From Saururus chinensis (taxonomy: Eukaryota > Streptophyta > Magnoliopsida > Piperales > Saururaceae), in the NCBI GenBank assembly GCA_035235625.1, contig CP141140.1:22402685-22466684 (forward strand): a stretch of DNA of 64,000 nucleotides, in the 5' to 3' direction. The stretch's first letter is position 1. Every line of letters starts with the position of its first letter. The position numbers and the translations under genes are program-made. Shown in pieces: positions 3,217-43,344 of this stretch. Under the pieces are notes generated by a model that made no database searches, was not told the DNA's origin, and was given only the letters and a program-made list of their open reading frames with translations.

Positions 3217-6200
3217 ATGGTTAGTTGTCATGAAGTTACTTGTTCAATTACTTTATATTTGTCACTGTGAATTGTAATATGATTATTCTTGGATTTAACT
3301 TTTCTGTTGTTTTTCATGTAATCATAATTTTTCTTTTTGTAGCTGCTTTCTAAGAAATCTTATGTGATTGCTATCATACCTCCAATTCCTACTACTAAAG
3401 CAAATTATTTGTGGGAATTCCTTAATGATTTAAATGCTAACAATTTGATGTTGAACATTCTTTATTTGGTTTTTTTTTTCAGGCCACCCTGAATGATACT
3501 TTTTTGGCTGACCTTGAAGAATTATCTGGCGATGAAGCACTTAGTGTGAGTCTTACATCTATTTGTATGATTTAGTAATTTCTAACCTTAGTCTAAACTT
3601 ATCTGCATGAAATCATGGGTTTCCATTAAAACTTATTTTATTTTCTTATGTGTTCATTAGCCCAATGTAGTTTATCTAATTGACTCTTTAGTTATTCTTG
3701 CTTCTCATTAATATTTACTGTATCCTAGGATAATGAAGGAGAGGAATTTGAGAATATGGAAGAAGATGTTGATGGTGACATAGCGGATATTGAAGCTCTT
3801 AATTACGATGATTTGGATAGTGTTTCAAAGCTGCAGAGAACACAACGGTACATTGACATAATGCAAGTATGTCAGCTGTATCTTCTCTTCTTATGTTTTT
3901 TTATTTTCTAAAGGTTAATCAGGCTATTTAATTTAAATTAGTAAATTATCTTCTATTAAATTTCAGAAAGTTGACGATGCACTTCAAAAAGGGTCTGATA
4001 TCTCAAACCAGGGAGTTATCTTGGAGGATGATCCTGAATACCAATTAATAGTTGACTGTAATGCCTTATCAGTTGATATTGAGAATGAGATGGTTATAAT
4101 TCACAATTTTATTCGGGACAATTACCGCCTGAAGTTTCCTGAACTTGAATCCTTGGTTAATCATCCAATAGATTATGCCCGAGTTGTCAAAAGAATTGGT
4201 AATGAAACAGACTTAACCCTTGTAGACCTTGAAGGGCTTTTACCCTCTGCAATCATTATGGTTGTCTCAGTGACGGCCTCTACTACACCTGGGAGGCCTC
4301 TTCCAGAAGAAAGCCTCAGAAAGGTTATTGATGCCTGTGACCGAGCTCTTAATCTTGATTCATCTAAGAAGAAAGTGTTTGATTTCGTGGAAAGCAGAAT
4401 GGGTCACATTGCGCCAAATCTGTCTGCTATAGTTGGAAGTGCAGTTGCTGCAAAACTGATGGGGACTGCTGGTGGCCTTTCAGCTTTGGCTAAGATGCCA
4501 GCTTGCAATGTTCAGCTTCTAGGTGGCAAAAAGAAAAATTTGGCTGGATTTTCTACTGCAACCTCACAATTCCGTGTAGGGTATCTAGAGCAAGCAGATA
4601 TTTTTCAAAGCACACCCCCTTCACTTAGGATGAGGGCTTGCCGGTTGTTGGCTGCAAAGTCTACACTAGCTGCACGGGTGGATTCCACTAGAGGTGATTC
4701 CACAGGGAAGACTGGGAGGGATTTAAGAGAGGAAATTCGAAAAAAAATTGAGAAGTGGCAAGAGCCACCTCCAGCGAAGCAGCCAAAGCCTCTTCCTGTT
4801 CCAGATTCAGAGCCTAAGAAGAAAAGAGGTGGACGCAGGCTGCGAAAAATGAAGGAAAGGTAAACATTTGTTTTTGTTATTGTTAAGTTTTGTCAGAACG
4901 CTGCACATGGTGGTTTTGATTTATCAATAATTATCAGGTCATGCATTACAGGTGACATTTTTGTTACTGACAACTGAGGCTAGGATGGTGTGAACAGCAC
5001 GTCTGCCTAGTGTTGTTAGTATGTTATGTAGACTAGAATTTTCAACGCATATAGTAGCTATCTTACTCAACTGCATCTTGGTTTATTTGTTCTAAAATGT
5101 TTGATGCAAAAGCTGATCACTAAGTTCCCTTTGTTTTCCTGTCCCCCCACATTGTCGATTAGACTATAACTGGATTAAACTGTCTGGGGCTTCTTTGAAT
5201 TGATACTAGCAGCTTGTTAAGAGAAACTGAAGTTGTTTTTTTTAAATCTCATCTGGGAAATATCGTAATCCCTAAATTTCTCTTAAAGGATCAGTTTCTT
5301 CCTTATCGTGCTATGGTTAATAGACATTTGAATTTGAGCATGTTTAGCTTAGAAAATTTCTATAAGTTGATGTTCATCACTGCATGCTGCTTCCTTTTGA
5401 AGTGCATATTTTTGGGGATATTGATCTTAGTAGACTTTGATTTGATGCGGCTGATTTTGTTTTCTATAGGTATGCAATTACGGATATGAGGAAGCTGGCC
5501 AACAGAATGCAATTTGGTATTCCTGAAGAGAGCTCATTAGGTAATAACATTTATATCTTGATCATCTGGAAGCATCATCTTAATCCAGATATTTGTGTTT
5601 TTTGTGTAAATTGTATTGGTTTCTTCATCATTAATGACTTATTGGCTTATAAAGGCCAGGTATGAAGCATGGTCCATAATCTTACATCTTGCTGAGATCT
5701 CAGTCTCAGTGGGAATGTCTAGGCAAGAGACCATGTAACGAGGCTTACGGTCTCAGCGGGATCACAGTGATCTCGCCAATCTTGCTGAAATTGTCCTCAT
5801 TTTTTATGGAAAAAATCATTTTTTGCGTTTTTTCCCTAAAACCTGAAGCTGCTGTAATTTTCTGCAAGTTAACAGAGGAAGAGGAAGTGTGAGGAGAAGA
5901 AGAGGAAGTGTAAGGAGAAGAAGAGGAAGGAGGAGGAGAAAGGTTAGGGAGAAGAATAAGAAAAAATAAGTAGAGGAGGAAGAGGAAGAAGGCTAGGAGT
6001 AGGACCTCATAAATTCTGCTGTGAGCCCTGTAAAATTGACTTCTGCCTTTCTCCTCCTCTCTTCTTATATGGGTAATCCTAAGCTGCTTCTTCTTGCAAT
6101 CTCCTATCTTTACTTAAATTATGTGGAAGATCCTAACCGTTAACCTGATTTGGTGAATATGACTCTCAAGTATCATCAAGTTCTTCACTTAACTAGCCTA

Positions 6201-23754: not shown

Positions 23755-26700
23755 TAGAACATGTAACTGTAGCATTCTCCATTACGGCCGAAGATACACT
23801 AATTGTCAAATTTTGCCTTGTTTCGCCATCGCCGCAGGTTGTATGGCTGCCAGTCGCCGCCATAGTTCTGCCCCGGCTAGTGCAACCTCCAGCCACTGCC
23901 GTCTTGGCCTCCCCGCTGTCCGCCACCGCTCTTTTGCTTCTACCCCATTTCGGTCCATGGACTATTTTTTTTACCTGATCCGCCACCGTTGCATGGCTTC
24001 CTAACTGCCGCCATGGCTCCGCCCCGACCACTGTGACCTCCGGCCACCACCGTCCAAGCCTCCCAGCCCACCGTCGCCAGCGTGAGGTAAAAACGTCACT
24101 GCCCTGTTTCTTTTTGTGTGTTTCTCTGTTTCTATGTGATGCAGTCACCAGGAGTGCCGCAAGTTGCCAGCCGTCATTGGCTGGCCTTCAGCTTGAGCTA
24201 GCCTAGCAATGGAAAGGCCGCCACCCTTGGTCTGGCTGCTGCCTCCCTCAGCCGCCTCTACCTTGTGTCAATTCGGACGGAATTTTCCTCGTCCTCCGTA
24301 GATTTTTGTCATAAGTTTTCTTTGAGGCCGCTATTTGTGCCACCGGTGGCTAGCCACTGCGACCGGTTGTTGGCCATCCCCCGGCCCGGCAACGGCAAGA
24401 CCGCCGCTTTGGCTGCCACCTCACTCAACCCCCTCAGCCCTATTTCGAACGGGATAAAAATATCCCCTTTTTCCTGTTTCGATGTATTGTGAAGCACTAT
24501 GCCGCTAATCTTCGGCCGTTGGCCTTCTCCTGAATTGGCGAAGGCAAGGCCGTCGCCTCTGACTGAATCACTGCCTTCCCCAGCCCATCACCCCTTTTTT
24601 CGCCTTTCAATTCTGGATAAATCTTTGCTCTGGCTTTATTTTTCTTCTTCTCCAATAGCGTATGTTCTCCATTGACTGACGTTGCATGAGATTGGGTCGA
24701 TGTCTATTCGAATCGTCATGGTCCAGTGATTGTTGAATCGCCACTGTGTTCCAGGTCTGTCCCTCGACCCCCGTTCGATCAATGGTGGCCAATGATAGCG
24801 TGTCCAGCATCCTAGCCCAATACTCCGTCGTCCCAACTAAATTAGGTCTCTTCAATTCTCTAACTGGCTATTCTGTTGCCCGGCATCAGCTAGCAAGCAG
24901 CTGTGGATGTTGGCTTGACCCAATATTGGCAAGGGGACCGTTGTTGGCGAACCTCACCCCTTTCGTGATCGACCACCCTAACCCTTTGAAAGACCGCCTA
25001 TTTTACGGTTTGACTATGACAAGATATACATGTGTTGTTCAATAGCCGATTCCACCCGTGAGTGGTTGGATCCGGCTTCCACCAACCTAATCGTTTCGAA
25101 ACCCATCGATAACTTATCTTTCCTAGGGTTTCCCTTTACCGCGCACACTTGTGTTGCACATGTAGTTTAGGCTAAAGGCACTGCCTTTCCGGTGTTTGAC
25201 AATGGAACAACTCCATCACTAGGCAATATGGTTGTTAAAGCTCTCCTCTATCTCCCTTATGTCCGTAAGTATGCAACCAAGTCCTCCGCCATGTTGTGAG
25301 GCTTCGACAATGCGGAATTGTTACCGCTGGTTATAGTCTACAGTCCATTTTAATGTTTTGTGGCCAACAAAGTGTTTTAAACCATTGGCCGACCTCCAAT
25401 CAGTCAGCCCCCATTCTATGGTCGCCTTTGCCATTTCTAGTGGCACAACTTTGTGTCCGGCCGCCTTAGTGCATCCAAACCTTTGGCTTCTAATGAAATT
25501 AATCTAACTTTATCGAGATTAATTCCAGCATATCTGAAAATCCTCAGGACATAACAACTCTCTCAGTGCGATGCTTTTGGCTGCCTATTCCGCTATCGAC
25601 GCCACCACCATTGTTTGCTTGTCATCAAACTCCTGTGGATTACGAGGTAGGGGACCTTGAACTCGTAATTTCATTATAGCATGCTTTGATTATGTAGTAG
25701 CATGCTAGGAGTTTATAATTTAATGTTTTGCGTGATAATGCTAATTAAATGAGCATGCTTTATATATGTGAATCATGCATATGTTATTGATGACTAAAGG
25801 TATGAAAACAAGTAATTGGTGAATTATATGTGTGTGATTTGAGTATGTAAGAAATATGTGTGGTCGATGAGCACGAGTACGTGCGTTTGTTTGTAAGTTT
25901 GTTGAAAGGGTGCTTCGTAGACTATGACATGGAAATTGTGATGGTATGACGGGCGAGGAAAGATGTAAGATGGATTGTCGAAGGTTGGATTTGATGAGAT
26001 TGTAGAATTGGCTTGGATTAAGTTGGGTAGTACATTGGAGCAGTGAGCAGAAGACCTAAGCGATGTAATGATTTGGAAGATTTAGGGTTCTTAACGTCTT
26101 TGGGGGATTGTGAATAAGTGAAAGTGGACTACATAATTGTACCGCATAATATACGTAATATGAATTGTAACAGAAAAATAATGAGTAAGGAATTAGTAAG
26201 GGTATGATGTCGGGATTTAAGTCAAAGGGTGTCATTTGAGGAGTTCGAGTAAGATGATTTAGTTTTAAGGCGGTTGGTGTAAGATGTAAGGCCGTAAGTG
26301 TATGATGGTAAGATTATTAGTTTGAAATTCGAGTTTAAGTAAGGCTATGCTGAGATTTGTAAGTGTAAGGATGGGGGATGAGTTACGGAAAGAATGATAC
26401 CTTTGTAGATTGGAACTTTTGAACGGGCGTATTTCTAGCCTTGTTGGCTGAAGAATATAAGACGGAAGTCATTCCAAGCATAATTATACATACATAAATT
26501 ACCTAGTATAAACTTGAATGGTAAGTAACCCTAATTTAATAATGTTGTGATGTTGAGACTGAGGGTTTCAACGGATTGAGTTCCGTTTTGTGCTAGTCGA
26601 TAAGTAATCGACTGAGCGTCCTTTCTAGTCTAGCCATGGTGTTTTTGAGTGGGATTTAGTCTTGGTGCTATATTTTGGCCCAGATATTTGATTTTCTGTT

Positions 26701-28083
26701 GAGAGCGCTGTAAGTTTTCGCCCTTTATGGGCTCTGTATGTTTTCTGCCTACAGATGGCACTATATGTTCTGCCCAAGAGGGGCACTGTAAGATTCCTGC
26801 CTAAGAGTGGCATTGTATATTTTCTGCCCTTAGTTGGCACTGTATGGCCCTAGAGAGTGGGCATTTGCACGCTCAGGTAAGTAGTATCATGGATCTGCTC
26901 TTACCTATTTGATCCTGTGCCCTATGAGCGTAGGTGTGCCTTGCATTCAAAAAAGTCCATGGTGTCTAGTTGTTGCCAGAAAGTTAAGGTGACGCCCCAT
27001 TGGCATTCCCTTCCTTTCCGACGTTGGAGCTTATTAATTGTAATGAGCTTCAGTTGTCGGTAGTATGTGTATGATAGTAAGAGTAAGTTATATATTTCAA
27101 ATTCTGAGTATGTTGTACATGTAAGATTTAGAGTAAGTGTGAGCTTCTTTTGAAGACAGTAAGAGTAAGTTTATGAGTATGAGTAAGTTGTACGAGTAAA
27201 TTTGTGAGACTTTGATTCAGACGGTAAGTGTAAGTGTAAGTATAAGCTTCTAAGGGAGATGTAAGAGTACATTTATGTGTAAGAGTAAGATTGTACGAGT
27301 AAGGTTGTATAAGTGAGTTCATACGAATAAGGTTGTGCGAGTATGTGTATGTTGTAAGTGTAAGAGTACGTTTGTATGAGTAAGCTGATAAGACTAATTT
27401 AGAGTGTAAGTGTAAGAGCATGACATATGAGTAAGTGTAAGTTTGATTTGTGCGATGATTTGTATGTGTGACCATATTTATACTTCTTATTCTATTTGCT
27501 TCATGTATGATTGCATGGAAGCATCTATATATGAACTTACAGAGTTCATTGATTTATATTTCCACTACTGGGTATTTTCCTACTGAGTATGAAAATACTC
27601 ACCCTATCTTTTTAGCCCCTTTGTCTGGAGGCTTTTACAGGGTGATCGATAGCTGTTTGAGACTGATTTTTTCCCCATGGTGGACAATTCTTCCTCGACC
27701 TGGAGTGCAGCGAATTTGTAGTAAGGTTATGTGGATTTTGGTGCCATGATTTCTTGTATTGTTTAAGGTGAGAGATAAATACATTATTTTCTAGACTTGT
27801 GTATCTATATATGAACCAGAACATAGACTGTTAAAGAACTTGTACTCGGAAAGGCCTGGGATGTATTTGTTTTTAAAGACCATGGCCATAGCAAGTTTTA
27901 CTTATATGTTTTGTTTTAGGTCACGCCTAAGAATTTTAGTTTGGTCATATATTGAATTAATTTATGAAAACTGTTTTCACACATTTTTTAGTTTTGTTGG
28001 TTCATTTGATTTACATCCATATTTCAAAATAAATTATCTATAAGATTTTCAATTAAATGTAAGGAAAAACCTCAGGCGTGACA
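23755..28083 (-). mobile_element. LTR E, second gypsy-type LTR family, 5' part not identified
   Basis: Homologous along most of its length to solo LTR D: for example GATTACGAGGTAGGGG with the AGCATGCTTTGA...GCATGCTAGGA that follows (25638 here, 35299 in D), and the TTCCTACTGAGTATGAAAAT and ACTCACCCTA segment at 27577-27606. Read on - it begins TGTCACGCCTGAGG at 28083, as D begins TGTAACGCCCGAGA. The far end is missing: LTR A sits at 23754 and I could not find the remainder left of 16440. It holds degenerate TAAGAGTAAG/TGTAAG repeats at 27060-27450 and GGCACTGTA-type repeats near 26740-26850. No genes; open frames here are low-complexity. Confidence 0.8.
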
Positions 28084-28454
28084 ATTTTGGAGAAGGTTGT
28101 GCTACGGTGAGCAGGGATGGAACACAGAGCGAGTTGAAGTTGTACTCTAGCGTGTTAAAAACGATCTCAAGGTGGCAACTAGCCTCATAGAACAGATGCA
28201 ACCCCCTGAGGAACCGGAGATAGAACAGTCGCTTGAATTCACTCAGCTGGAGGTTGCCCGAAGCATCAACCCCTCTGCCAAGAACTGAAATATCGCCATC
28301 GGTTCATTTAAAGACAAAAGCTTCAAAATCTAGAGAAGCTCGCCAACCATCTACCTCCGAAGATCAACTAGTACATGTCCCTCGGCTAGTGGAAGAGGGA
28401 TTCATTTTGAGTAAGTACGACATTTTAATGTATCATGTTTCATTAGGGGATCTT

Positions 28455-28691
28455 CGTGTAGTAAAGTGCACGATAGGGGATCATGTCGTTTATTAAGAGG
28501 CGATTTTGGTATTGTCATGTCATCGATCACACGATCATTGAAGTAGCAGTTACTTCTGAAAATAATCATTTTGTGGTCGTGTGATCGTGAGCATGATTAG
28601 TCCTCTTTTCATTTTTTCAACAATACGATATGCAATTTCATTGTATTTGGTAAAAGATGACTAGTGTGCATATCGTGTGTTTACTAACACG
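28455..28691. repeat. Dyad motif cluster 1 (CGTGT-N8-ACACG), in an Ulp1 intron
   Basis: Sites are 28455-28472 (right half GCACG), 28516-28533 (left half CATGT) and 28674-28691 (exact). All have exactly 8 bp between half-sites. A weaker site with a degenerate right half starts at 28578. The cluster lies entirely inside a likely intron of the Ulp1 gene. Confidence 0.85.
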
Positions 28692-29654
28692 TTGACTTAC
28701 TTCATAAATATAGAGAAATAGCAACCGCAAGCTGCCACCAAACTGAAGAAGAAAATTGGTCCGAAGTTGCAAAGGGCCACAAAAATGAGATTTTTGATGA
28801 AAATAAATGTAAAATTAATGGAACAACCATTAAAGGTCGTGGAACAACCACAGGATGTCGTGGAACCACCCTAGGAGGTGGAAGAACAACCCCTGGAGGT
28901 CATGGCTCAAGTCCACGATGGGCTGGACCCCATGAGGGACCAGCATAACAACTAGAGATTCCGAAACAACCCTTGGAGGGACCAGAAGCACCCCAGGAAG
29001 CAAATAAAGGAGCAATCTGAAACAAGCAATAAAACTCATATTGAAGATGAAAGCTACTCCTAGCACTCCCTTCTTACCTCATGTGCCACAGAAGTTGACG
29101 TACACCGCAGTTGAACAACCTGCTAAAGGTGAGGAGCCCATGAAGAAAGTCTCAGCTCAAGACTCGAAGAAGTCAAAGCATTTTAGCAGCTACATTGATG
29201 AGAAGATAGCAGAGTTTGGACACATTTCCCAGCCTGGAAAGCTTGGTGACGAAGTACCTCTAGCATCGGTCTCTAGCCCAAGCATTATCCATCTGGCACA
29301 TCCAAAGTCCCCACTCCAGAACCAGCAACCTCAATCACAGTTTCCAGTGAAGGCACTTTATCGAATACTCCTCTAGTAGATGCAGAAGTAATTAATAGTA
29401 TCCACGATGTTGTAGATGTCGAAGATGATGCTACGACTAAGATGAATAAGGAGTGCAATCTGTGGCCAAATGACTATCTTCACACAGAGTTGGTATTCCA
29501 CATGGAGGTTTAGAAGGAGGCAGATAAGGAAATTATCACCGAACTTCTGTCGAACCCATACAATTCGTGGTCCATAGAGACACTCCTCTACACCAACTGA
29601 GTGCATAACGAATGAGGTAATATCATTTCATTTCTCATACGTTTGAACATCCAT

Positions 29655-29903
29655 CGTGCTATCAATCAAACGATTGAATAACTGACGCATATTACAATTA
29701 ATTATCGTTTTATCGATTACACGGCCTAGGATCATATCGTTGTTTTCCTTATACGCTAAGTTTCAACTATAATTGTTGAAGTAAAACTAGTGTGTTAATT
29801 CATACATGACTTGTAAATGCGTCATGTTATCGTTAATTTGATATAATCACTTATCTTGTAAATGATGTCACGATCAGTCGACTATTGTGTCATTACTAAC
29901 ACG
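29655..29903. repeat. Dyad motif cluster 2, in the next Ulp1 intron
   Basis: Sites are 29655-29672 (CGTGC/AAACG), 29706-29723 (CGTTT/ACACG) and 29886-29903 (TGTGT/ACACG), each with an 8-bp spacer. The last site lies about 18 bp before the acceptor of the exon that encodes the protease core. Confidence 0.8.
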
Positions 29904-30647
29904 TATGGTTTTGTGTAGGTCATTGACATCTTCTTCCAACTTCTTGATGAACAAAATTTGAGAAATCCAGGGATACCCCAACTATTTTTTTGGCAAGTTC
30001 GCTATTCAACACTACTTAAACGTTGGCACGACAGAAGGGCCGGCAGAGAAGGAGGGCAAACTCTCTGACATATTGTTGAGAAGCCTGAATGTTAACACAG
30101 AGAGCGGTTCCATTCCTATCATGTCAAGGGCCACTTTCTCTTGCTTATTGTTTGCTGCAGGGAGAAGCGATTTAGGTGGTACAATTCTCTAAAGGGTGAA
30201 CACAGTCACCACTTCACTGAGGTTGACAGTGTTAGGAAACATGTTGCCAATGGAATGGAGATGGCACTTAAGATAAAGGGCGCTCGGCTGTGGCCAATGA
30301 CTAAGATTAATAAATGCCCGTACCAGGAAACAAACAAAGATTGTGGTTTGTTCATTATGTACTATGTAGCGAAACTATCAGGGGGCGTCATTCAGCCATA
30401 TTTTAGAAAACTCGAGATAATAGGCTTGGTCAGACCGATGATCTGCGCTGTAATACTTTGGGCTCGAATAGAAGAGGAATTTGATTCAGAGACAGATGAA
30501 TTGTAAAAAGAAAATAGACTTCTTTCACGCTTCGATTAACTAACAAATTCAATGTTCGACCAATTATTTTGTAATTAACTACTGGAAGAGAAATACATGT
30601 ACCAATGTCAAATGGCATATAATCGATCAAATGATTTGTACCAATAT

Positions 30648-31634
30648 CGTGTATTCGATGGCACGAAATGGAAGTACACATATATTTGATCGTATTATAG
30701 TTCTCACAATCGCCCATTAGGCTGTGTTATCACATACACACCACCTAGTATTAGGTTGTGTTATTGTTTACAAGGCATCTCATATTACTACGTCTTTGAT
30801 GTCGTGTAATCAAACAAAAGAAAAAGACACATGTCGTTGATCATAATTGATGACCGAACGTTCTCGAATGAGGATGGTCATAGGAAAGTTTCAAATGTTA
30901 ACTGAAATCAAATATGTTTCCGGATGACCACTTCAAAGGATGTTGATGACCTATATATCGCAAAAGCGACAGATCATAATAGTGTAGGTCGTGTTATCCG
31001 ATTGAACTACATAATAATGTTTCGTCATGTGTCTACATAAGTATTATTAATATTTTCCTTTAAATTTCATTAATTCATTACATCCAACAAACTAATAGTT
31101 ACATAACTCTATAAATACAAATAAAGTTCAATTGTGACAGAACATTCGCGACATTGAAATAACACTGGGTACTAAATTGCCCCCTTTAAGAGGCTGGTTA
31201 GGACTGCGCCACTGAAGGGGACAAATTACCATCTAGCACTATATCAATGTCCCAAAGGCTCTGTCTCGTGCTCTTCGTGAATTCGGTTAGCCCAGAGGTC
31301 ACTTCGATATATATAAGCAAGATGCGAGGGATATAAACCGTTAAATATTTATGAAAATTATTCCATATATAGTGTAATTGGAAATGACTACTCGTGAATC
31401 GGTGATTCTAATTTAATTGAAATCTCAGAAATTGTGGTGTTTAAATTAATGTAGTTGTCGTATCTAACATAAATATTCATTATCGCAGTCATGAAATCAT
31501 AAAACGGACTGATAACTCATCGTGTTCATGTGAACACAATATTTACGAAAGTTGTGTGAAAACAAAATGTGAGTGTATTATTGTCGTGTAGTCTGTAACA
31601 CGATATACAAACATATCATGTTAAGGAATACACG
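30648..31634. repeat. Dyad motif cluster 3, between the two MULE genes
   Basis: Sites are 30648-30665 (CGTGT/GCACG), 30723-30740 and 30757-30774 (two mismatches each), 31521-31538 (CGTGT/ACACA), 31585-31602 (exact) and 31617-31634 (CATGT/ACACG). All keep the 8-bp spacer. No coding exon lies in this stretch. Confidence 0.85.
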
Positions 31635-31739
31635 CTTCAACAAGTATCATTACGTCCAATATACAGGAAAGACAACTTTCAATGGGAAGAAACATATAAT
31701 TGTTTTTAATTCATTACATCCAAAAAACTAATATTTACA

Positions 31740-32302
31740 TAACTTTAAAAATACAAAGAAAATAACAATCCATCTCGTCGCCAGCGATCAGTTGGCATGC
31801 GATCTCCTTGTAGACTCACGGACCCATCATTTCAAGAATAGGGCATCGTCTAGCAAATAGGGCGCGAATGTGATGGATCATTTGAGACATTGATATATCG
31901 CATTCTAGTGAAACATGCCCGCCATCAGATATAGGTGAAGACCATATCCGAAGGAGGGCCGATTCACCAACCGCTGCTACAACAATCTCCCGAATGATAC
32001 GTCTCCATGAAGAACATCATTGTGTGAGTGATCTCCCTGCAACCTTCACAGATATACTGCAAAAATATTCATTATCGGAGTCATGAGAAAGTCATTGCTA
32101 AATTGTTGTCTATCAAATAGGGCGCGAATGCAATGGATCATTGGAGACACTGATATATTGTTGTCCATGATCGTGCCCATGATCGGATATAGGTGATGAC
32201 CGTATCCGATGGCAGGCTGATTCACCAGCCGCTGCTTAAGCAATCTCCCGAATGACCCTTCTCCGTGAAGAACCAATGAGTTAGGGTTATGAAAACCCTA
32301 AC

Positions 32303-32304
<2 letters not shown>
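31740..32304. repeat. Imperfect direct duplication between the MULE genes
   Basis: 31850-32015 and 32108-32270 are two diverged copies of one segment. Both contain AAATAGGGCGCGAATG, GGATCATTKGAGACA, ATCAGATATAGGTGA- or ATCGGATATAGGTGA-type text, and CAATCTCCCGAATGA. No protein was recognised. The dyad motif is absent here. Confidence 0.75.

Positions 32305-32351
<47 letters not shown>
32305..32351. repeat. (AT)n microsatellite
   Basis: An uninterrupted alternating AT run of about 46 bp in the spacer between the MULE genes, bounded by AACCC and GGTAGGG. Confidence 0.97.
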
Positions 32352-32353
<2 letters not shown>

Positions 32354-32532
32354 TAGGGTGAGACGGTTATGGACCACCACGTTATTGAAGGTATTGATGC
32401 TTCGGGAATAACGCCTCTGGAATTGGGTCATTACGATCATGGAATTGTTGTGGGTTCGAACATATGATATGATCAATATCGTGTAAGACATGGACACTCT
32501 TGACAAAAGAATTAATAATCGATGGATATTAT

Positions 32533-33241
32533 CGTGTAATTAGTAACACGTAATCCCTTTTGGTCATGTTGTCGATTACATTATACAAGTATAGAGTATA
32601 CCCTATGTACAACATTTCATGTTTTTAGGAACACGTTAATTACATATTTCGTGGTGTTGTTAACACGATGTATATACAAAAAAGTACAGCTGAAGAACGG
32701 GGGTGGAAAAGGTAAGCCTGATCGATGTTCCCCTTCCTTATGCCATTTGTGTATGCTATTATTCGACCTCCTTCAACTTGTCGATGGGACATCTACCACA
32801 TTGGGGACCCCCCTTGTGCGCTAGTACATCGTTTGCGGTTGTGACTCAACTGACCGCATGTTCCACATTTTCGTAAAGCTTTGAGAGGTGGTTGTGACTT
32901 TATCCGATTTTTTCATAAACTCCCCCGATGCTTTTGAGGGATAGGTGGGCTGAATGTAGGCATAACTCCAGCCGATGCCCACTGGTGTCAATCCTTCATT
33001 GGGTATAAGGGCTCTTGGTAGGTCAGTTTATACATTTCAATAGAGTATCATCTTTCACAATACTCAGACATGTAGAAGTGTCTATTATCGATTGTTGTGA
33101 TTGCATACTTACATAGTAGACCCAAATTTTGAAACCTTCCACATGTGCAGGTACGATCAACCAAGTTTACCACATCCTGTGAAGAAAATATTGTTAGTAT
33201 GAGCACACGATAAATGACTTTCTCGTGTTCTTGATTACACG
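32533..33241. repeat. Dyad motif cluster 4, around the transposase 3' end
   Basis: Sites are 32533-32550 (exact), 32618-32635 (CATGT/ACACG), 32650-32667 (CGTGG/ACACG) and 33224-33241 (exact). The first three lie downstream of the transposase stop; the last lies in the intron that LTR D later entered. The transposase exon between them (33178-32793) carries none. Confidence 0.88.
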
Positions 33242-33599
33242 ACGTGTCATACGATCATTAAGTAAAATCATATCTACTTACACAATGAATGAAACTAACA
33301 AGTTTAAACTAAACGATTGTAAGGTCCCTGATTTTTCTATGATTTTTTGGGATTTTTCTGCCATTTTTCTGGTTATTTTCGACAGGAAAATGTGACGTTT
33401 CAGCGTATGGGTATTTGTGTCTTTTCCCCGTATTTATACCCGTAGAGTCGGGTGTGGGGCTTAGTCGCGGGCCACGGGCCTCGCTGCGCGCTTACGGCGC
33501 AAATTTTGGAGGTTTGACGCATAACCAATGGGTTAACACGCATTGGGGACATAAGCGGGAAAAAAATAAAGGAGAACAAATAAAAGATCGGGCTCGGCC

Positions 33600-34320
33600 C
33601 GATCCGGATTTCGGATGTGAACAGTGGCCGCCCCCCCATTTCCGCCTGTTCACTGTGCCCGGCCACCGCCGCCCGCCGGTGGGCCAGTGGACCGCCGCAC
33701 CGGCTCCGCCCTGGCCGTGCGACGGCAGGGGAGCCGCCGTCCCAGCCCCCACGGCCGCTCCGCCCCCACTTTTTCGGTGAGCCCCCCTTTTCTGTGATTT
33801 GCGATTCCACCGCCGCCGTGGGCCGGCGAGGGCCGGCCGGCCGCCCACGGCTCCGCCATGGGCCGGCGACGGCGGGAGGCCACTTCCCCCGGCCCCGGAC
33901 GGCCCCAGCTCCGCCGTCCCGTTCCCTCTCTCTGCTGCCCCTGTTTGCCGCCCCACTGTTTCTCGTCGTTCCGCCGCCGCCACTGGCCGGCACGGCCCGA
34001 CCGGCCGGCCACAGCTCCGCCCTGGGCCGGCGACGGCGAGGAGCCCCTCCTCCCGGCCCGGTGGGCCTCGGCACCGCCGCCCCATCTCTTTTTCCCCTTT
34101 TTTTTCACTGTTTCGCCGACGGACTGTTTGGGCAAACAGTGGCCACCGGCGGTGATCTGCGGCCGATTCGGCCCTCCCCCAGTCCCGCCTTGCTCCGGCG
34201 AAGGCAGTGGACTACACCTCCGTGCCCGATTCAGCCACCGCCCCCATGGCCGCTCCGCCCTTACGGGTTTTCTCCGGTCGTCCCCTATTTTGGCCTACGT
34301 CCGTTTTGGACGTTGTGACT
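33600..34320. other. GC-rich, CpG-dense core of LTR D
   Basis: Built from diverged copies of GGCCGGCGACGGCG and CCGCCGCCGTGG words, giving long open frames on both strands at once (for example 33400-34135 on - and 33617-34322 on +). All frames are Pro/Arg/Ala-rich without a domain, so I treat them as by-products of base composition rather than genes. Confidence 0.8.
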
Positions 34321-35489
34321 GACATTATTAGTCGGACGCCGGATTTGATTTAGCGGACCGTAGTTCGGCTCCGCCCCAGCCCGGTGACGCCAATGGGCCA
34401 CCCCTCTGGGTCTTGTTCAGCCTTGCGGCCCGTAGCCGCAGCTAGTCCACCTTACCGGCATGTGTGCCGTTGACCCTTCTTGCCCATTTTACGCCGTCGG
34501 TACCGGACAGCCTCGGGCAAGAATTTGTATGTCTTACCTTGACAGAAGGTGGACGAGTTCACCTGCTCAGGCCTTGGCCAGTGACGGCCTCATAGCCTTT
34601 GCTCGACCGTGAACCCTCCCCCTGCTCTCTGTCGTGCGAGATGCACAGCTGCCCGCACCATGGGTTTTGGTTGTGGGTGGCGATCGGCGATGTCACCACT
34701 TAGATTGGCCACCGCTAGGGCCTTAGCCCGGTTGGCTTTTGTGGGCCATGAGTCGCCTCATTTCAGCCATTTCCCCCGCCCTTTGGGCCGCGTGCGCATG
34801 TAGCCACGCGTGTACTTCTGGGTTTAGGCGCCGCATTCGTGCCGCCTAACCATCGGTTGGCTTTGCCACCGAGTGGAGTTGACCACTAGAGCTGTCCTCC
34901 ACCTCTCCTTTGATTCTTGAGCGTTGCCCCACGCTCTCCGCCCTTATGTGGGCCTTTGTTGACCGGAATCGTCGCCGTTGGGTGCTGTCCACGGCCGATT
35001 TCGACGTCTTATGGCCGGCTGTGCACGTCTTAGCCACCGGCTGATCTTCAGAGTGTACACCCTTGACATCTGATCGTACCGCCACATATGTTGGCACGAT
35101 ATTTCTCCCGGCCGCCCTAGTGTGCCGCCGTGGATCGCGGGTTTTACCGCATTGAGTTCTGACACTCTGTTTGGCCGTGATAGTTTCGGCGCTTCCTAAA
35201 ACCCTCGGGACAGCAGCTCTCTCAGCTAGGCAATGGTTTTGACTGCCAACTCCGCCGCCGACGCCGCCACCGTCGTGTGCTCGCCATCGAACGTCATGAT
35301 TACGAGGTAGGGGAGCTTTGAACTCGTAAATTCATGAAGCATGCTTTGAATGAGTAGCAGCATGCTAGGATTGTATGATTCCATGCTTGGATGTTAAGTA
35401 ACGATCCGATTGCATGAGGTGTGTGTAAGCATGATTGTATGGTATGATTGATATGCATGAGATGTATGCATGTTTTATGGATGTGGATT

Positions 35490-35770
35490 ATGTATGCGCT
35501 GGCGATGGCTAGCAAATATGTCAGTATGCTATGTATGGGTTATGCATGTGCTAGTGATGGCTAGCGTGCATGTTTGAAGTATGTATGAATGTGTATGTGC
35601 ACGTGCTAGAGATGACTAGCGTGTACGTTTGATGTATGCATGTGCTAGTGATGGCTAGCGTGCATGTTTGATGTATGTGTGAATGTATGCATATGCTAGT
35701 GATGGCTAGCGTGCACGTTTGACGTGTGTATGCATGCGCTAGTGATGGCTAGCATGCATGTTTGTAAGTT
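35490..35770. repeat. Degenerate array around GCTAGTGATGGCTAGC
   Basis: At least six copies of a unit containing GTGCTAGTGATGGCTAGCGT, GCATGTTTGATGTATG and variants, spaced 45-60 bp apart, inside LTR D. The matching part of LTR E is not visibly expanded. Confidence 0.85.
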
Positions 35771-36479
35771 ATGTATGTATGACCGTATGTGTATGTTATA
35801 CATATGTGTGGGACATACGTATGTATGATGGCATTTTGCCTATGCTTTGGATGTGTGTAAGTGTTGTGGGCAGAAGTATGGGCGATGGACAGTAAGAGGT
35901 GACAGAAGCTTTGTCTGGATTTGGATACAGTTGTGTAAGCGTATGACAGAGGATTTGAGTATGACGGGCAAGGATTAGAATGGATCAGTTTGGGGTGGAT
36001 TGTATGTTGGGCATTTGTCAGACAGTAAGAGTGTTCATAATTGTACAAGCATAACGTACAGATTATGAACTGAAAAGTAAGTATAATAAGTGAGATATAA
36101 GTAAGAGGGCGACAACTGGGTTGGCTCTGAGGAGCGTTATTTGAGGATGTCAGTGTAAGAGGATTTGGCCATAAGATGGATGGCGAAGTACGTAAGACTG
36201 TAAGGGTTTGTTGTACGATGAGTTTTGTCCATGATGTGGACGGGTAAGTGAAGTCTGCTGCCCTCACGAACTTGGGTTTCGGATCGGGTTCAGCTTCGGT
36301 TTGACCAGTCGAGGACTGTGAGTTTATGTGGCATAATTGTACCGCATAATATACTTAATTCAAACTGGAATTATAAGCACAGCTAATGATAGCGTTGTGA
36401 GTTTGAGACCTGAGGGTTCGACGGATTAAGTTCCGTGTTTGAGCTGGCCGCTTTGGCCGAGCATTTATCATGTCTTGCC

Positions 36480-36760
36480 ATGGTGTTTATCCTGCGGGAT
36501 GTTGTCTGTGTGCTATATAGGGCACCGGACGTCTGATGCTCTGCTGAGAGCGATGTTGTTTCTGTTTTGGTCTGCGTGCTGTATAAGCCCAGACGTTTGA
36601 TGCTCTGTTGAGAGCGATGTACGTCTCTGACTTTGTCTGCGTGCTGTATGAAGCCCAGACGTCTGATGCTCTACTGAGAGCGATGTACGTTTCTGATTTG
36701 GTCTGTGTGCTGTGTAAGCCCAGACGTTTGCTGCTCTGTTGAGAGCGTAGTATGTTTTTG
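36480..36760. repeat. Array of about 64-65 bp units in LTR D
   Basis: Four units carry GTCTGCGTGCTGTATAAGCC, CAGACGTTTGATGCTCTGTT and GAGAGCGATGTACGT with small changes (starts near 36539, 36604, 36668 and 36732 if phased on CTCTGYTGAGAGCG). LTR E has one clear copy of the related segment near 26690-26710. Confidence 0.9.
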
Positions 36761-36775
36761 CCCAAGAGTGGCAAT

Positions 36776-36950
36776 GGCACTATAAGACCCATTATGGTGG
36801 GCAATTCTCTGGCACTATAAGACCCATTATGGTGGGCGATTCTATGGCACTATAAGACCCATTATGGTGGGCAATTCTCTGGCACTATAAGACCCATTAT
36901 GGTGTGCGATTCTATGGCACTATAAGACCCATTATGGTGGGCAACTGTAT
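36776..36950. repeat. Array of 35-bp units in LTR D, 5 copies
   Basis: Units start at 36776, 36811, 36846, 36881 and 36916. Each begins GGCACTATAAGACCCATTAT and continues GGTGGGCRATTCTMT. The strict 35-bp period and near identity show recent expansion. Even-numbered and odd-numbered units share different endings, which points to duplication of 70-bp pairs. Confidence 0.95.
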
Positions 36951-37179
36951 GACCCCTTATGTGTGGGTGTTTATGTTTGCGCGCTCAGGTAAGTAGTATC
37001 ATGGATCTACTCTTACCTGTTTGATCCAGTGCCCCATGAGCATTGGTGTGCCTTACCTTCGGAAAAGTCCATGGCGTCTAGTCACTCCCCGGAGGTTAAG
37101 GTGTTGCCCCAGTGGCATTCTTTTCCATTTCGACGCTGGAGCTTATTAGTTGTAATGAGCTTCAGTGGTCGTTGATATG

Positions 37180-37600
37180 TGTACGATTATGTGTATGAGT
37201 ACGACTATATGAGTATGAGTAAGACTGTAAGTGTATGAGTATGAGTAAGACTGTAAGAGTGTGTATGAGCAGGACTGTAAGTGTATGAGTATGAGTAAGA
37301 CTGTAAGTGTATGAGTATGAGTAAGACTGTAAGAGTGTGTATGAGCAGGACTGTAAGCGTATGAGTATGAGTAAGACTGTAAGTGTATGTGTATGAGCAC
37401 GACTGTAAGAGTATGAGTACAATTGTGAGAATATGTTTCTGAGTAAGACAGTAAGTATGATTTTGTGCAGACTGTACGAGTGAGGTCGTACGAGTCTGAT
37501 TGTACGAGTAAGGTCGTACATGTATGAGTAAGCTGTATGAGTGAGCATACGATTGTACGAGTAAGGTCGTACAAGTATGCGTATGTTGTATGAGTATGCG
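37180..37600. repeat. TAAG/TATGAG-rich degenerate array in LTR D
   Basis: Repeats of GAGTATGAGTAAGACTGTAA and GTGTATGAGCAGGACTG, then GTACGAGTAAGGTCGTAC. The same type of sequence occurs in LTR E at 27060-27450. The Tyr/Ser-rich open frames on - here are artefacts of the repeat. Confidence 0.9.
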
Positions 37601-39371
37601 TACGGTGGTACGAGTAAGTTGTATGACCCTGGATAAGGGTGTTTGTGTAAGTTGATTGGATATTATGATTTTGGCACGATGGTGCGTTTGGTATGTTTGC
37701 ATGAGTTTGAGCATGTTTATGATTATGATATGCTTCTGCTTCATGTTTGAGTTGCATGACGCATGTGTTTATGAACTTGGAGTTCACCGTTTGGGATTTC
37801 CCCTACTGAGTATTTTCTTACTGAGTATGAAAATACTCACCCTACTTTTTTTAGCCCCGTTGCACGGGAGGTTTTGCAGGTTGTGCGGAGAGCTCCTGGA
37901 GATGGACGCTCGTTTCAGCGGTGGATTGATTCCCGTTGACTCAGGTATCAGCTTGACTCTCTACGAGTTCATTTGTGCCACGATCTCCTGTATTGAGTGA
38001 GATGAGACTTTAAGATGTTTTATTCTGGACTTTCGATTGGATTAGTCTGTGGACTGTTATGGGACTTGTACTCAGGGATGTCCGGGAGTGATTTGTATTT
38101 AAAAGTCTATGATCATAGCAGAATTTATTCATACGTGTGTTTTCGGGTAGCGCCTGAGGATATTTGATTTGACAGTACGATGTTTAACCGTATGATGTTT
38201 TAAATTATAAACAGGTTTTGATTTTATCGTTTTGACTCCGATTTATGGAAAAAAAAATTTCTATGAGTTTTGAGAAAAAGGGATGAAAAATCTCGGGCGT
38301 TACAACGATATGAAGCCCTCATACATAAACAAACACACGCTATGTACATCGTCGTATGAATGCAATGTACCTGGTGATATAACAAGTTAACCTGGAATTC
38401 ATACATTGACACAAGCAATACAATCACATTCCTGGCTTCTTCTCACTGCCTGTTTTCAATGTGTTTTTGGGAAAATGGAGTTAACTCTTCCATCATATTC
38501 TGACTATCCATCCGACGTTTTTCAAATAATGTCGTCATGTGCCCCCTCATGCGCTCAATTAAACTCGTTATAGGCATCTATCTTGCTTTTTTGAACATTG
38601 CATTTGCACTTTCAAACCTATTTGAGTTGAGGGTCCCATATCTTTTCCCATAAAATGATACATTGGCCCAGTGCTCCAAACCTATCTTATTTAGCCAAGC
38701 ATATGCTTTCGGATTATGTTCTTTAATGTTGTTCATTGTTTCATCGTACACATTCTGTCTGAACATTTCAGCTGTAACATAGAGCTGATTCTTTAGGTAG
38801 TTGTCTTTGAATATGTCTAGCATATTTACTGCTATGTGATAAATGCAATATTCGTGGTGTGTAGATGGGAAAAACTTCTTCACAGCATTTGCCAATCCCA
38901 TCTGTCTATCAAAAACAATTGTATCTAACTCGGCTAGCAAATCAGAGAATAGATGATTTCTAAGCAACTCAGGAAACCAACACCAAGTTTTCTCGCACTC
39001 ATTCTCAACCACTATAAATGCAACGCATGACATATTGTTCCCATCGAGTGCAGTTGCTATCAATAGTTGTCTAGGATACTTTCCTTTCATGAAAGTTGCA
39101 TCAACTGTTAACAAAAGCCTCAGGATTGTTCTGAAAGCACTCACAATGGGGACAAACATCCAAAATACTCTTTTGAAATTGTACCCACCCATAGGACTAG
39201 GAATATCACATGATCTCATTGGTACAACTACACTTCCCGGATTTATATATTCTATTTGCCTCATGTAAGCAGCGGTAGGATTCGTCTAGGTCACCATCTA
39301 TTAAATCAGTCAGACCTTTACTTGCACGAACGAATACAATTAAGTAAATGTTATACGACACTGGCTTACAT

Positions 39372-39517
39372 CGTGTTCCTAATATCACGACATTTTATGT
39401 TTTCGTGTTATTAGAATCCATACATGATGACTTGTCGTATTTGTGGTAACACGATATTGACGTATGTCGTGTGAGTGCATATTCCGACTATAGTTTAAGC
39501 GTGTAAATGATAACACG
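39372..39517. repeat. Dyad motif cluster 5, in a transposase intron
   Basis: Sites are 39372-39389 (CGTGT/TCACG), 39436-39453 (CGTAT/ACACG) and 39500-39517 (exact), almost evenly spaced at 64 bp start to start. Two unpaired CGTGT half-sites lie at 39404 and 39468, 32 bp after the preceding full site in each case. All lie between transposase exons. Confidence 0.88.
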
Positions 39518-40398
39518 CTAGACTAACATATCGTGACACTAAATCAACACTTCAATTCTTCTCATTCATTACTTGTGCGCCATCATTTCTTGTAGTTGGC
39601 AATTATGCCCCAGTGCTTCGATATATAACTTGTTATGCTCTTATGTGTAATGTCCATCGAGTCTTTAAAGAGGTCATAACATTTTTTTCGCTATCCACAG
39701 GTGCGATGCTAGGGGATGGTCAATTGGCTTCCAATGGGCTCCATATGAATAAGTCGGCACTAACCTTTTGACAGTCACATGATCTCCTATATTTGAAGCT
39801 CTTATGTACTAGTTACAAGAATCATTAGAGCACTTTGCAGCATACGTATTATGGTTTTCATCCACAACATGATATGTGAAATTCGCCTTTATTGCTAAGT
39901 CAATCAGGACCCTCTTGAAATGCAACATGCTTAGAAAACGTGCACCCAATTCGATGAGCTTCTAGTAATCCTTAGCTTGCAAACTGCCCATCATTAGCTG
40001 GCCTTCACCAATATTCGGTTCCAACATGTTTAAATCATCGACTGTATCCCAATCTGCCTCCGCCTCAACATCGACATTACTGGGAACCTCGTTGTTTCTA
40101 AATTCTTCGTGGTCGGGCATACTTTCCATGTCAACTATATTATTATCGTACCACAGATCCTCACCCCACATATTTTCAACTTCTTCACCTTGTCCATCAT
40201 CGTAATTACAAAGGTTGTATGGAGGTTTGTAGCTATCAAATGAAGTCCTTGTCTCACCCATCATTGACGACTATTCCTCTCATTTATTCTGATTGACTTC
40301 TATTTCAGGTTATGTACTCATTGGATTGGTGAAAGATGATTGATATGGATTTGTTGAGGGAAAGTTTCCCGGTTCTCCCAATCTGCATTGCACATTAT

Positions 40399-40649
40399 CG
40401 TGTTAAAAAATACGACATCAATTGACATCGTGTATTCTGTTAACACGCTTACATTTCAAAACGTATTATTGAAACCACGACATGAATGCATGTCATGTTA
40501 TTATATCTACATTACAACTCATAATCGCTATATTGCATGTGTATATCGTGTAATTACTAATGCGATATATTACACGTTATGTTTATTACTTCACACGATA
40601 TGATTTACCCTTAACACGATATGGTCAATATCGTGGTCTCGAGTACACA
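40399..40649. repeat. Dyad motif cluster 6, upstream of the transposase start
   Basis: Sites are 40462-40479 (CGTAT/CCACG), 40547-40564 (CGTGT/ATGCG) and 40632-40649 (CGTGG/ACACA). A pair of exact half-sites with a 9-bp spacer lies at 40429-40447, and single half-sites at 40399, 40572, 40593 and 40614. This is the presumed promoter side of the transposase gene, whose first ATG is at 40264. Confidence 0.8.
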
Positions 40650-41941
40650 AAATATTTCAATTGCGTATAATCTAAAGATTCATTGTTATCTGACAGTTTC
40701 AAAGGTGAACTGAATTTCATTGAATCTGGAACGAAATCCAAATTAGAGCTAGGATGAGCCATTACGACGGGTGATTCAGCTCTATTGACTGTCTGGTTCC
40801 TTTCTACGTAGGGTGATAGTGATTTATTACCATTGTTGGGCTATTTCATGTCGATATATAATGATAATACCTCCTTATTTGTCTTCTTATGAATAGAAAA
40901 CACTGATTAGAGGTCCTCATCGTCTTGTAATTTATATATCATGGATGATTGGGAGGATGAAATTAAATATTTCAAACTGACATTACCATTGACATAAAGT
41001 CATGCTTTAACTTACCCCAAGAGCTCACCAACAGATGAATATTCATCAATTGTGTCATTCCACTAATATACACGTCATCATTACCTACCTATCTGTTATA
41101 ATGGATGAAAATACCGATCTTATCCATGATTGGCGTGAAAAAAGAATTGTTTCTACAAAATACAGCTTTTGGAGCACTCACACAACATCTGCAGTGTCAA
41201 AAAATATTTTTTTCTTATTCATTGACTCTTGCCAATGAGTCACCGCCAATCAATTCCTACGACAAGTTCCGCTCACTGTCGATGACTACTAATACACCGG
41301 AACGGCGCAATACTGTACCAGTGTTCATTTATTACTCTCTACATTAAGACCTAATATAGTAAAAACCTAAAGATATTTTGGTCCATAAACAAGTCATATG
41401 ACATTTTTGTTTAAAATCCAAAAAATATAAAATATTGTATTCTTTGGCCAGGCAATATAAAAAAAAATTCTTATATAAAATTCATATCCTACTCAGCAAC
41501 ACCCTCCCCACACCCTCTTCCTCTTCCTCTTCCCCCAGCAGCCAATGTAGTAGCTCTATCCCCGTCTCTATGGCAATGTGTCCAGCCTACCTTCCCATCT
41601 CCTGCCTCAGCAATTGCCACAGCTATGGTGGCCAAAGCCTGGCTATATGTGGCCTGGCCAACATGGGAGGCCACCTTGGAAGCCCTGACCATGGCTGTCA
41701 TGGCTCACCCATGGTAGATCTGGCCATGGCTGCGGTCCAGCTCCGGCACACCGAGCTAAGTTTATTTTGTTTACACTATGCTGGCTATGCACAAGGAAGA
41801 ACGCAGTTTTTTCTTAATAACACGTTCAATACAAGAAGAACGTGATTTTGCACTAAAAGAAGAACCCGAGCAAAAGGGTCCTCCACGACATCCATACATA
41901 ATATATCAGCCACTAAACACGATCAATCACTGCAGCATGGT
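40650..41941. other. Spacer between the MULE and the thioredoxin gene
   Basis: AT-rich sequence with no dyad motif, then at 41500-41760 a CCT/CTTCCTCTTCC-rich and GGCCATGG-rich patch whose open frames on both strands resemble nothing I know. The thioredoxin 3' UTR should lie in about 41800-41941, and the right end of the MULE somewhere in 40650-41450. Confidence 0.4.
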
Positions 41942-43344
41942 TTAAACAGTAATCTGTCTTGGATGGGCTTGAGCCAAGGATTCAGCAAATCCTGCCACTT
42001 TCTTCTCAAGCTCCGGTTTGTTGGCCCCCACCAGATGATCAAGTTGCTCTCCATCTCTGAGGAAATAGAAGGTTGGTGTGGCACGTATGTCCCATGACGA
42101 ACTAAACTCCTGCGTTGCAGATCGACAACAGTACTAAATATCAGCTAAACATTATATACACACCCATAACTCTTGCCTGATCGTTCAGCAAGATGTCTTA
42201 ATCATGCGACTAAGGTCCCTGCCGGTGGCGAAGTTGGCTAAATAAAAATGATGTCAAACAAAGACTACTAAACATAATAAGAATACGACAGCCTGAGGAG
42301 GAGAAAATACTTACTGATAGCTCATCCACATCTACTGATACGAAGCAAAGAGAAGGATATTTCTTGGAAAGGTCTGCATAAATGGGAGCCATTACTCGAC
42401 AAGGACCACACCATGAAGCACTGAAGTTTACCACAACCTGGGGGTGTGTGGAGGGGGGGACAAAAGAAAGGAGTTAATAAAATGTCAAAGGATAATTATA
42501 TGATTTGCACAAAGCATATACAACACGCATGCTACAGTACAATTTGGCAGTCCAGATTCTCCAAAAAATTCAAGCTTCCAATTCTTCTATTTACTCCCAA
42601 AACGAAAATTTTTACGAAATTATAGATGCCACAAAATACATCACAACAATATTGAAGTAATTTTTTGTCAAATCCCACGTTTTTTTTTACCAAAGATGGG
42701 AACTTTGAATGCCAAATCTTATTATGCTTCTTAAAAATGACATGGGAATGGGGAAGATACAAATTATAAGTACTTACAATCTTGCCCTGCTTGTTGGCTT
42801 CCGATATCTTCACGTCCCAGTCATATCTGCTAGTTATAATAAGGACGTTTCCACCACGGTATTCTATCTTGTCATCTGGATCATCATCGTGAGCCCCCTA
42901 TTGAGAAAATTATGTAGATAATGAACATATTTTGTGGCAGGAGAAAGAAGAGCACTTGATTTGATTACAGATAGTGACTATCTTAAAAGTAACTATTGCA
43001 ATCAAATGTTTCTGGGTCAGTCTTTACATCTAAATACTTGGTTTCCTACAAAAGTCATGCTCCCTACAAGAGATGCAACGTAAAGTTATTCAATCGGTCT
43101 CCTCTCTAAAAGGTACAATGGCATTGCCTCAAAACCTGCTCAAATTAATTGGAACAAGGGAGCATCTACGTTCTACATGTGAATGCTACAGCTAAAGAAC
43201 GCCTCACTTTTTCTTTTATATCTGAGATTTTGGTTAATGCAATAAAGAGGAACAATACATGAAGACACAAATTAGCTCAAATATACCAACTCTGTTAATG
43301 AGCAGAAAAACTTTTTCTCATACCTGACTACAACAACCGCCCAT
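41942..43344 (-). CDS. h-type thioredoxin, h9-like, with acylation signal (4 exons)
   Basis: Thioredoxin h proteins reduce target disulfides using electrons from NADPH-thioredoxin reductase or glutathione/glutaredoxin. Exons on - are 43344-43324, 42897-42778, 42437-42315 and 42109-41942, all with GT-AG introns at codon boundaries; total 432 nt, 143 residues. The first exon encodes only MGGCCSQ: Gly2 is a candidate for N-myristoylation and Cys4/Cys5 for palmitoylation, as described for Arabidopsis TRXh9, so the protein is probably on the plasma membrane. The active site SWCGPC has catalytic Cys57 and Cys60. The cis-Pro loop ATPTF is at residues 98-102. [12 protein letters not shown] near 115-126 is typical of the h9 branch. 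No damage is seen. The start is fixed by the acylation motif and the splice phase. The exact paralogue cannot be named from sequence alone. Confidence 0.95.

Follow-up and report, generated by a model that had tools for sequence, protein, structure and literature searches.

We describe here a family of Mutator-like elements (MULEs) in Saururus chinensis, one copy of which lies in a 64,000-bp stretch of contig CP141140.1 (assembly GCA_035235625.1, positions 22,402,685 to 22,466,684 of the forward strand; the window hereafter) and carries many dispersed copies of the dyad CGTGT-N8-ACACG. The element is a Mutator-like transposon, of which the better kept copies encode a MuDR/MULE transposase and a convergent second gene, which has an Ulp1 domain and matches DUF1985 weakly. 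The dyad has an exact 8-bp spacer, is conserved between copies, prefers non-coding DNA and certain distances to its neighbours, and is present at loci of this family and absent from three other DUF1985 loci. As judged from these sequence features, the dyads are very probably conserved protein-binding sites. On balance, we favour the view that they form a phased palindromic array analogous to the targets of VANCs, the anti-silencing proteins of the Arabidopsis transposons VANDAL21 and VANDAL6 (Hosaka 2017, PMC5735166; Sasaki 2023, PMC10398659), which would be bound by the DUF1985-Ulp1 protein with an anti-silencing effect.

The original prediction had listed 22 dyads in the window, five of them perfect, eleven with one mismatch and six with two. 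A scan of the window recovered all 22 positions with these mismatch numbers and added five two-mismatch dyads in parts of the element, making 11 in that class. The element DNA (8,430 bp) holds 5, 11 and 11 dyads with zero, one and two mismatches, correspondingly; 60 first-order Markov simulations of the same DNA gave means of 0, 0.12 and 2.2 and maxima of 0, 2 and 6, and hence failed to reproduce the dyad count. The 48,000 bp of the window outside 26,001-42,000 contain 0, 0 and 7 dyads of these classes, and the scan of the whole window revealed no perfect dyad beyond the five listed. The dyads, for which no strand is given, and the other parts of the element are arranged as follows:

28091..28427, plus strand: 'mid1' coding stretch of the second gene (tblastn), degraded
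28455..28691: dyad group 1, sites at 28455, 28516, 28578 and 28674 (perfect), between the 'mid1' and 'mid2' stretches of the Ulp1 gene
29233..29756, plus strand: 'mid2' coding stretch of the second gene (tblastn), degraded, last part probably intron
29655..29903: dyad group 2, sites at 29655, 29706, 29791, 29855 and 29886
29871..30503, plus strand: Ulp1 protease (Peptidase_C48) exon (tblastn match 29871-30443, open frame 30096-30506, PF02902 with E 8.6e-8)
30648..30820: dyad group 3, sites at 30648, 30723, 30757 and 30803, 3' of the Ulp1 exon
31521..31634: dyad group 4, sites at 31521, 31585 (perfect) and 31617, steps of 64 and 32, intergenic
32533..32667: dyad group 5, sites at 32533 (perfect), 32618 and 32650, steps of 85 and 32, intergenic
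33224..33241: perfect dyad CGTGTTCTTGATTACACG, intergenic
33318..38304, no strand: later insertion splitting the MULE, bounded by TGTAA...TTACA and flanked by the 5-bp target duplication ACGAT (33313-33317, 38305-38309; by eye)
38299..39270, minus strand: MULE transposase catalytic exon (PF10551; profile match and tblastn)
39372..39517: dyad group 6, sites at 39372, 39436 and 39500 (perfect), steps of 64, in the gap between the two transposase exons
39608..40402, minus strand: transposase N-terminal exon (tblastn); the homologous exon of locus L027 has a MuDR-type DNA-binding domain (PF03108)
40462..40649: dyad group 7, sites at 40462, 40547, 40580 and 40632, upstream of the transposase
41390..41470, minus strand: right terminal inverted repeat (TIR), outer end at about 41470

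In group 2, the sites at 29655 and 29706 fall in the last part of the tblastn 'mid2' match and the site at 29886 in the first part of the Ulp1 match. Two splice signals recognised by eye, a GGTAAT near 29615 that resembles a donor and a TGTAG near 29918 that resembles an acceptor, suggest that this group occupies an intron. Decayed left half-sites seen by eye at 39404 and 39468 place group 6 in a 32-bp register.

The window belongs to contig 1 of a 516-Mb, 11-contig host genome, where the perfect CGTGT-N8-ACACG occurs 4,591 times, against 297 for the reversed pattern. The version with a 7-bp spacer was found 116 times and its reversed control 626 times; as the background is in the hundreds and the 7-bp spacer reaches only 116, the 8-bp spacer is specific. 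By these three control counts (116, 297 and 626), 86 to 97% of the perfect sites stand above background. For the palindrome CGTGTTATCGATAACACG with at most two mismatches, 5,235 sites were counted versus 4 in the control. The dyad is thus far above background across the genome and related copies of the element do carry it, both in keeping with the original prediction; whether the excess belongs to the MULE family was judged on the loci fetched rather than on every genomic site.

Base frequencies at 55 non-redundant sites extend the motif to a symmetric palindrome with the halves TATCGTGTTATC and GATAACACGATA. At the same sites the spacer matched the palindrome TATCGATA at 4.31 of 8 positions (random 2.37). 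The oriented spacer proposed earlier, AATNRNTA, reached 3.91 of 6 versus a random 2.81 with the better orientation allowed, and its letters are common to the palindrome; since the dyad is part of the longer palindrome, an orientation of the sites is not supported. An unsupervised search of 5-mer dyads with spacers of 0 to 16, performed per locus, returned CGTGT-N8-ACACG as the top dyad in L027 (8, tied with its extension TCGTG-N10-CACGA), L028 (12) and L030 (8). The top dyad of L023 was TGTTA-N4-TAACA (12), itself part of the palindrome, with CGTGT-N8-ACACG counted 5 times; in L032 it was TAACA-N8-TGTTA (7), part of an 85-bp tandem repeat, followed by TGTTA-N4-TAACA (5). The word ACACGAT occurred 7 to 32 times per family locus against 0.7 to 3.0 expected, in 15 out of 15 loci tabulated; L027 to L030 among them had been picked by transposase alone, the window was where the motif was found, and the rest were chosen wholly or partly by their dyads.

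Three further loci, L033, L034 and L035, taken from 150 scored DUF1985 matches, had no dyad site listed, with ACACGAT occurring 0 or 1 times in all three. They repeat words of their own, which is suggestive, each word being seen in one or two loci and partly in tandem repeats: GAAAACT in L033 (16 versus 3.0 expected), and AGTTAAC in L034 (26 on both strands at 16 distinct places versus 1.3) and L035 (7 versus 1.2). These data bear on the possibility that the binder is a protein of the host, either a transcription factor or an architectural protein, recruited by the element as a spread enhancer or insulator. The conservation and spacing of the sites are silent on the identity of the binder and would suit such a factor; nevertheless, the large share of perfect sites above background speaks against it, and DUF1985 loci of the same genome that lack the dyad and carry other words fit family-specific binding better than host binding. 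We consider a host factor distinctly unlikely.

It should be added that the non-coding DNA of L033 (1-9901) repeats GAAAACT / AAAACTATAAAACTG in 8- and 16-bp steps. L034 and L035, with open reading frames 89% identical, represent a third DUF1985 group, whose palindromic word AGTTAACT / TCAGTTAAC, partly in tandem arrays of 177 to 199 bp, is another candidate for an array code. The DUF1985 genes are accompanied at L033 2905-3387 and L034 9090-9683 by strongly acidic open frames made up of repeats, with Glu/Asp runs; variable repeat regions have also been described for VANCs.

Conservation was assessed in alignments between ten copies, which yielded 294 site pairs and an aligned partner, at 68 to 97% identity, for 56 of 60 perfect reference sites. 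Because the relatedness of the copies makes the pairs interdependent, reference sites served as the units of the test: 51 of the 56 were more identical than their own flanks (Wilcoxon 2e-8). Identity per base was 0.93, 0.76, 0.97, 0.92 and 0.97 in the left half-site and 0.96, 0.93, 0.97, 0.74 and 0.89 in the right one, as compared with about 0.79 in the 40-bp flanks, and both halves were intact in the partner in 103 of 294 pairs. Control CG-N14-CG positions outside dyads showed no such excess (0.81 versus 0.815, n = 1,477). Unlike plain CpG decay, the inner base of each half-site CpG varies (0.76 and 0.74) and the outer base is held; deamination would strike both bases equally, so that the asymmetry would point to base-specific recognition. 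The variation of the inner base may also report the tolerance of the binder for a methylated or lost CpG.

That the dyads avoid exons, as previously claimed, was borne out in six copies, where the non-coding density is about seven times the coding one. Sites with at most one mismatch numbered 118 in 33,781 non-coding bp and 9 in 19,348 coding bp (7.5-fold, Fisher 2.6e-14) with the window 'mid2' cut at 29600, before the splice-donor-like GGTAAT; with 'mid2' run to its tblastn end, they numbered 117 in 33,625 and 10 in 19,504 (6.8-fold, Fisher 8.5e-14). The coding spans were drawn from open frames and tblastn matches, and their edges are therefore rough. The element thus shares with VANDALs the presence of a short motif at high density in non-coding DNA.

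Spacing was analysed for neighbours 26 to 120 bp apart, using sites with at most one mismatch and comparing periods of 7 to 16. Out of 111 neighbour distances, 86 were retained after removal of similar linkers, for which the best period was 10.5 bp (R 0.67, p 2e-17); under a stricter removal, 73 distances gave R 0.62 at this period. The commonest step was 31-32 bp, and without this class R was 0.60 (n = 62, p 2e-10) or, after the stricter removal, 0.55 (n = 54). As controls, eight unrelated dyads were taken from this DNA, allowing as many as 3 mismatches to obtain enough sites; they gave R 0.05 to 0.27 at 10.5. After similar-linker removal, R was 0.75 to 0.82 for L031 and L032 combined (29 to 31 distances if two mismatches are allowed, 8 if one is) and lay between 0.51 and 0.66 for the remaining ten loci. 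Genome-wide, the 32-bp step ACACGAT-N10-ATCGTGT occurred 224 times versus 0 in the control. Half-site pairs with gaps of 0 to 9 numbered 440 (control 12), gap 9, the 31-bp step, accounting for 38 of the first 50 listed; those with gaps of 11 to 21 numbered 167 (control 18).

Compact copies of about 2 kb (L017, L021, L023 and L026) consist of TIR ends and a dense dyad array in all four cases read, with TIRs of 81 bp in L023 and L026, and tblastn detected no match to the proteins of the element in any of them. In the larger copy L029, the TIR ends are at 1373 and 9860 and the first and last listed sites at 1943 and 9015, which leaves 570 bp at one end and 845 bp at the other without a listed site; the array is thus not subterminal. 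This distribution has to be considered if the dyads were sites for the transposase of the element itself, serving as an interior docking or regulatory array. Such a role would agree with the MuDR-type DNA-binding domain encoded in L027 and with the joint retention of TIRs and dyads by the four compact copies, as expected of sequences needed in cis for transposition. However, the TIRs of L029 and their vicinity were free of listed dyads, and the sites populate introns and the intergenic region, which makes the transposase an unlikely binder. CACTA-type elements have subterminal repeats bound by TnpA. As in the present family, a short site is there repeated many times within a DNA transposon; the position differs, as the dyads are spread through the interior with none seen near the ends.

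The assignment of the element to MULEs is supported by PF10551 matches in the window (E 9.6e-17) and L027 (E 8.5e-19), and that of the second gene to the Ulp1 (C48) type by PF02902 in the window and L028 (E 9.3e-7). The TIRs, starting with GAGTTTTTTCCATATT, are 81 bp long and 74 to 81% complementary in L025, L023 and L026. Target duplications of 9 bp, inspected by eye, are exact at L023 (TTTTTTATT) and L017 (ATTTTATTA), imperfect at L021, L024, L025 and L026, and not evident at L022; TIRs with a 9-bp duplication are thus found in relatives, and the window shows the right end only. A transposase exon query gave 150 scored matches from 3,614 candidates, with identities of 73 to 100% among the matches listed. 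L029, about 8.5 kb from TIR to TIR, comprises a DUF1985-like exon, a further stretch of that gene, an intergenic part and the convergent two-exon transposase. By tblastn, the DUF1985-like, 'mid1', 'mid2' and Ulp1 stretches follow in that order on one strand in L020 and L025; L027, L028 and L030 have 'mid2' and Ulp1, and two of these three have 'mid1'. The four stretches presumably belong to one gene.

The window copy itself is decayed, having apparently lost the DUF1985 part and the left TIR and gained the 5-kb insertion. No DUF1985 match was found in it, nor was a left TIR found in the window by a word search with up to 6 mismatches, and alignments of copies break at 33318-38304. The insertion, of about 5 kb, is G+C-rich at one end; the left part of the MULE may have been lost to a related piece, whose end lies near 28084.

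Homologue searches returned 4 proteins with the transposase and no match with a DUF1985 open reading frame. No PDB chain matched the DUF1985 profile up to E 10, and the fold predicted for the domain from 5 sequences had a mean pLDDT (predicted local distance difference test score) of 49.

Among known systems, VANDAL21 and VANDAL6 are the closest in the parts of their descriptions consulted. VANC21 binds YAGTATTAY in non-coding VANDAL21 DNA, in arrays of motifs with the same orientation, and VANC proteins contain DUF1985 and DUF287 (PMC5735166); Ulp1-bearing VANC genes of VANDALs are reported to act through motifs as well (PMC13317346, a review). The Saururus family similarly is a MULE with an extra gene, here with a weak match to DUF1985, and one short motif runs through non-coding DNA, including introns and the region upstream of the transposase, the motif seemingly differing by family. 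It is distinguished from these two by the helical spacing preference, 81-bp TIRs, the Ulp1 domain and a host probably outside eudicots (as judged from one gene); TIRs of the VANDAL group measure 46 to 174 bp (PMC6446971). Kaonashi/KIU elements are Ulp1-carrying MULEs of Arabidopsis, melon, rice and grapevine (PMC13317346); they share an Ulp1-domain second gene with the present family, and each group of KIU-type VANCs reportedly works through its own motifs. In contrast to their description as non-TIR elements, the family has 81-bp TIRs; a similar motif in KIU elements is conceivable.

The VANC analogy of the original prediction may be regarded as strengthened by the DUF1985-like domain that precedes Ulp1 on the same strand in L020 and L025, and the claim of oriented sites as unsupported. 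Four features go beyond that prediction: the complete palindrome, the spacing by helical turns, the derivatives with TIRs and array only and, in the window copy, the apparent loss of the left TIR and of the DUF1985 part. The first three are not met in the VANDAL/VANC literature as far as its accessible parts go: four strings of the palindrome had no occurrence in a literature text search, neither motif nor spacing was described in titles and abstract openings among the matches listed for VANC/VANDAL, Kaonashi/Ulp1, DUF1985 and subterminal or helical arrangements, and the words 'palindrom' and 'spacing' are absent from the main text of PMC5735166 and PMC10398659.

From the above we infer that a protein binds the dyads, which protein this might be and what its binding could do. 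A dedicated, most likely element-encoded protein would bind the palindrome as a symmetric dimer, and bound dimers would dock side by side on one face of the helix, the commonest steps being near 3, 5, 6, 7 and 8 turns. The most likely binder would be the protein with DUF1985-like and Ulp1 domains that the second gene encodes, in view of its relation to Arabidopsis VANC, and its most likely job to coat the non-coding DNA of its own element and remove or block silencing marks there. Such coating would serve full copies and compact TIR-plus-array derivatives alike.

Several observations weigh against this proposal. Without multiples of 32, R falls to 0.49 (n = 35, p 2e-4), or 0.45 under the stricter linker removal (n = 31, p 2e-3); inclusion of two-mismatch sites gives 0.54 to 0.60, and 0.33 to 0.34 without multiples of 32. 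In the four compact copies alone the period is not significant (22 distances, R 0.64, random draws up to 0.74). L032 harbours at 2673-3528 a ten-copy 85-bp tandem repeat, that is 8 helical turns, with decayed dyads. Among the first 50 pairs listed out of the 167 with gaps of 11 to 21, step 33 occurred in 14 and step 38 in 17, with mostly recurrent linkers (by eye), and step 38, being off the helical phase, is at odds with a strict spacing rule. Steps of 31-32 bp contribute part of the spacing signal, and tandem amplification is another possible source of such steps. As to the protein, no Ulp1 match was found in L029 by tblastn, and the DUF1985 domain scores in L025 (E 8e-6) and L020 (E 4e-4) are both below the gathering score of Pfam. 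Finally, unlike the 9-bp directional word of VANC21 (PMC5735166), the site here is a symmetric palindrome of 18 to 24 bp, and the array consequently has no common orientation.

It might even be asked if the array is a functionless by-product of slippage and tandem amplification of 31-32-bp and 85-bp units, like a decaying minisatellite. The prevalence of the 31-32-bp step, the 31-bp tandem arrays of the compact copies L017 and L023 and the 85-bp one of L032 are what such a process would leave. Yet half-sites are conserved and linkers are not, the linkers at the 32-bp step look very diverse (by eye, in the 50 of 224 sites listed; control 0), and after similar-linker removal the steps other than multiples of 32 still fit 10.5 bp, though weakly; we therefore hold this explanation to be very improbable. 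The 85-bp repeat of L032 may show growth of an array that keeps phase. The half-site pairs with the 38-bp step share a similar linker (ATTCAAC...) and possibly represent one derivative family.

How one VANC recognises long targets so specifically has been called enigmatic (PMC5735166). A long palindrome conserved base by base, with thousands of copies and a tendency to helical repeats, offers a testable answer, namely cooperative binding on one face of the DNA, for which TIR-plus-array derivatives are a natural minimal substrate. A bolder generalisation, which we put forward tentatively, is that each DUF1985-MULE family of a magnoliid-like plant has its own dispersed code, here a helically phased palindromic array, and that on this array a dimeric DUF1985-Ulp1 protein polymerises along one DNA face over several kilobases, undoing silencing. 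If true, this would be a VANC-like system outside eudicots, with a quantised spacing rule by which short motifs could confer specificity for a whole element.

A neighbouring gene on L022 is nearest to Aristolochia among named hits (69% identity, the next named genera having 61% or less), which makes a magnoliid host likely. Systems of this kind may therefore predate Brassicaceae or extend beyond them. Furthermore, open frames resembling Ty3/gypsy gag-pol by eye were noticed at L019 3421-8362, inserted in another copy of the MULE.

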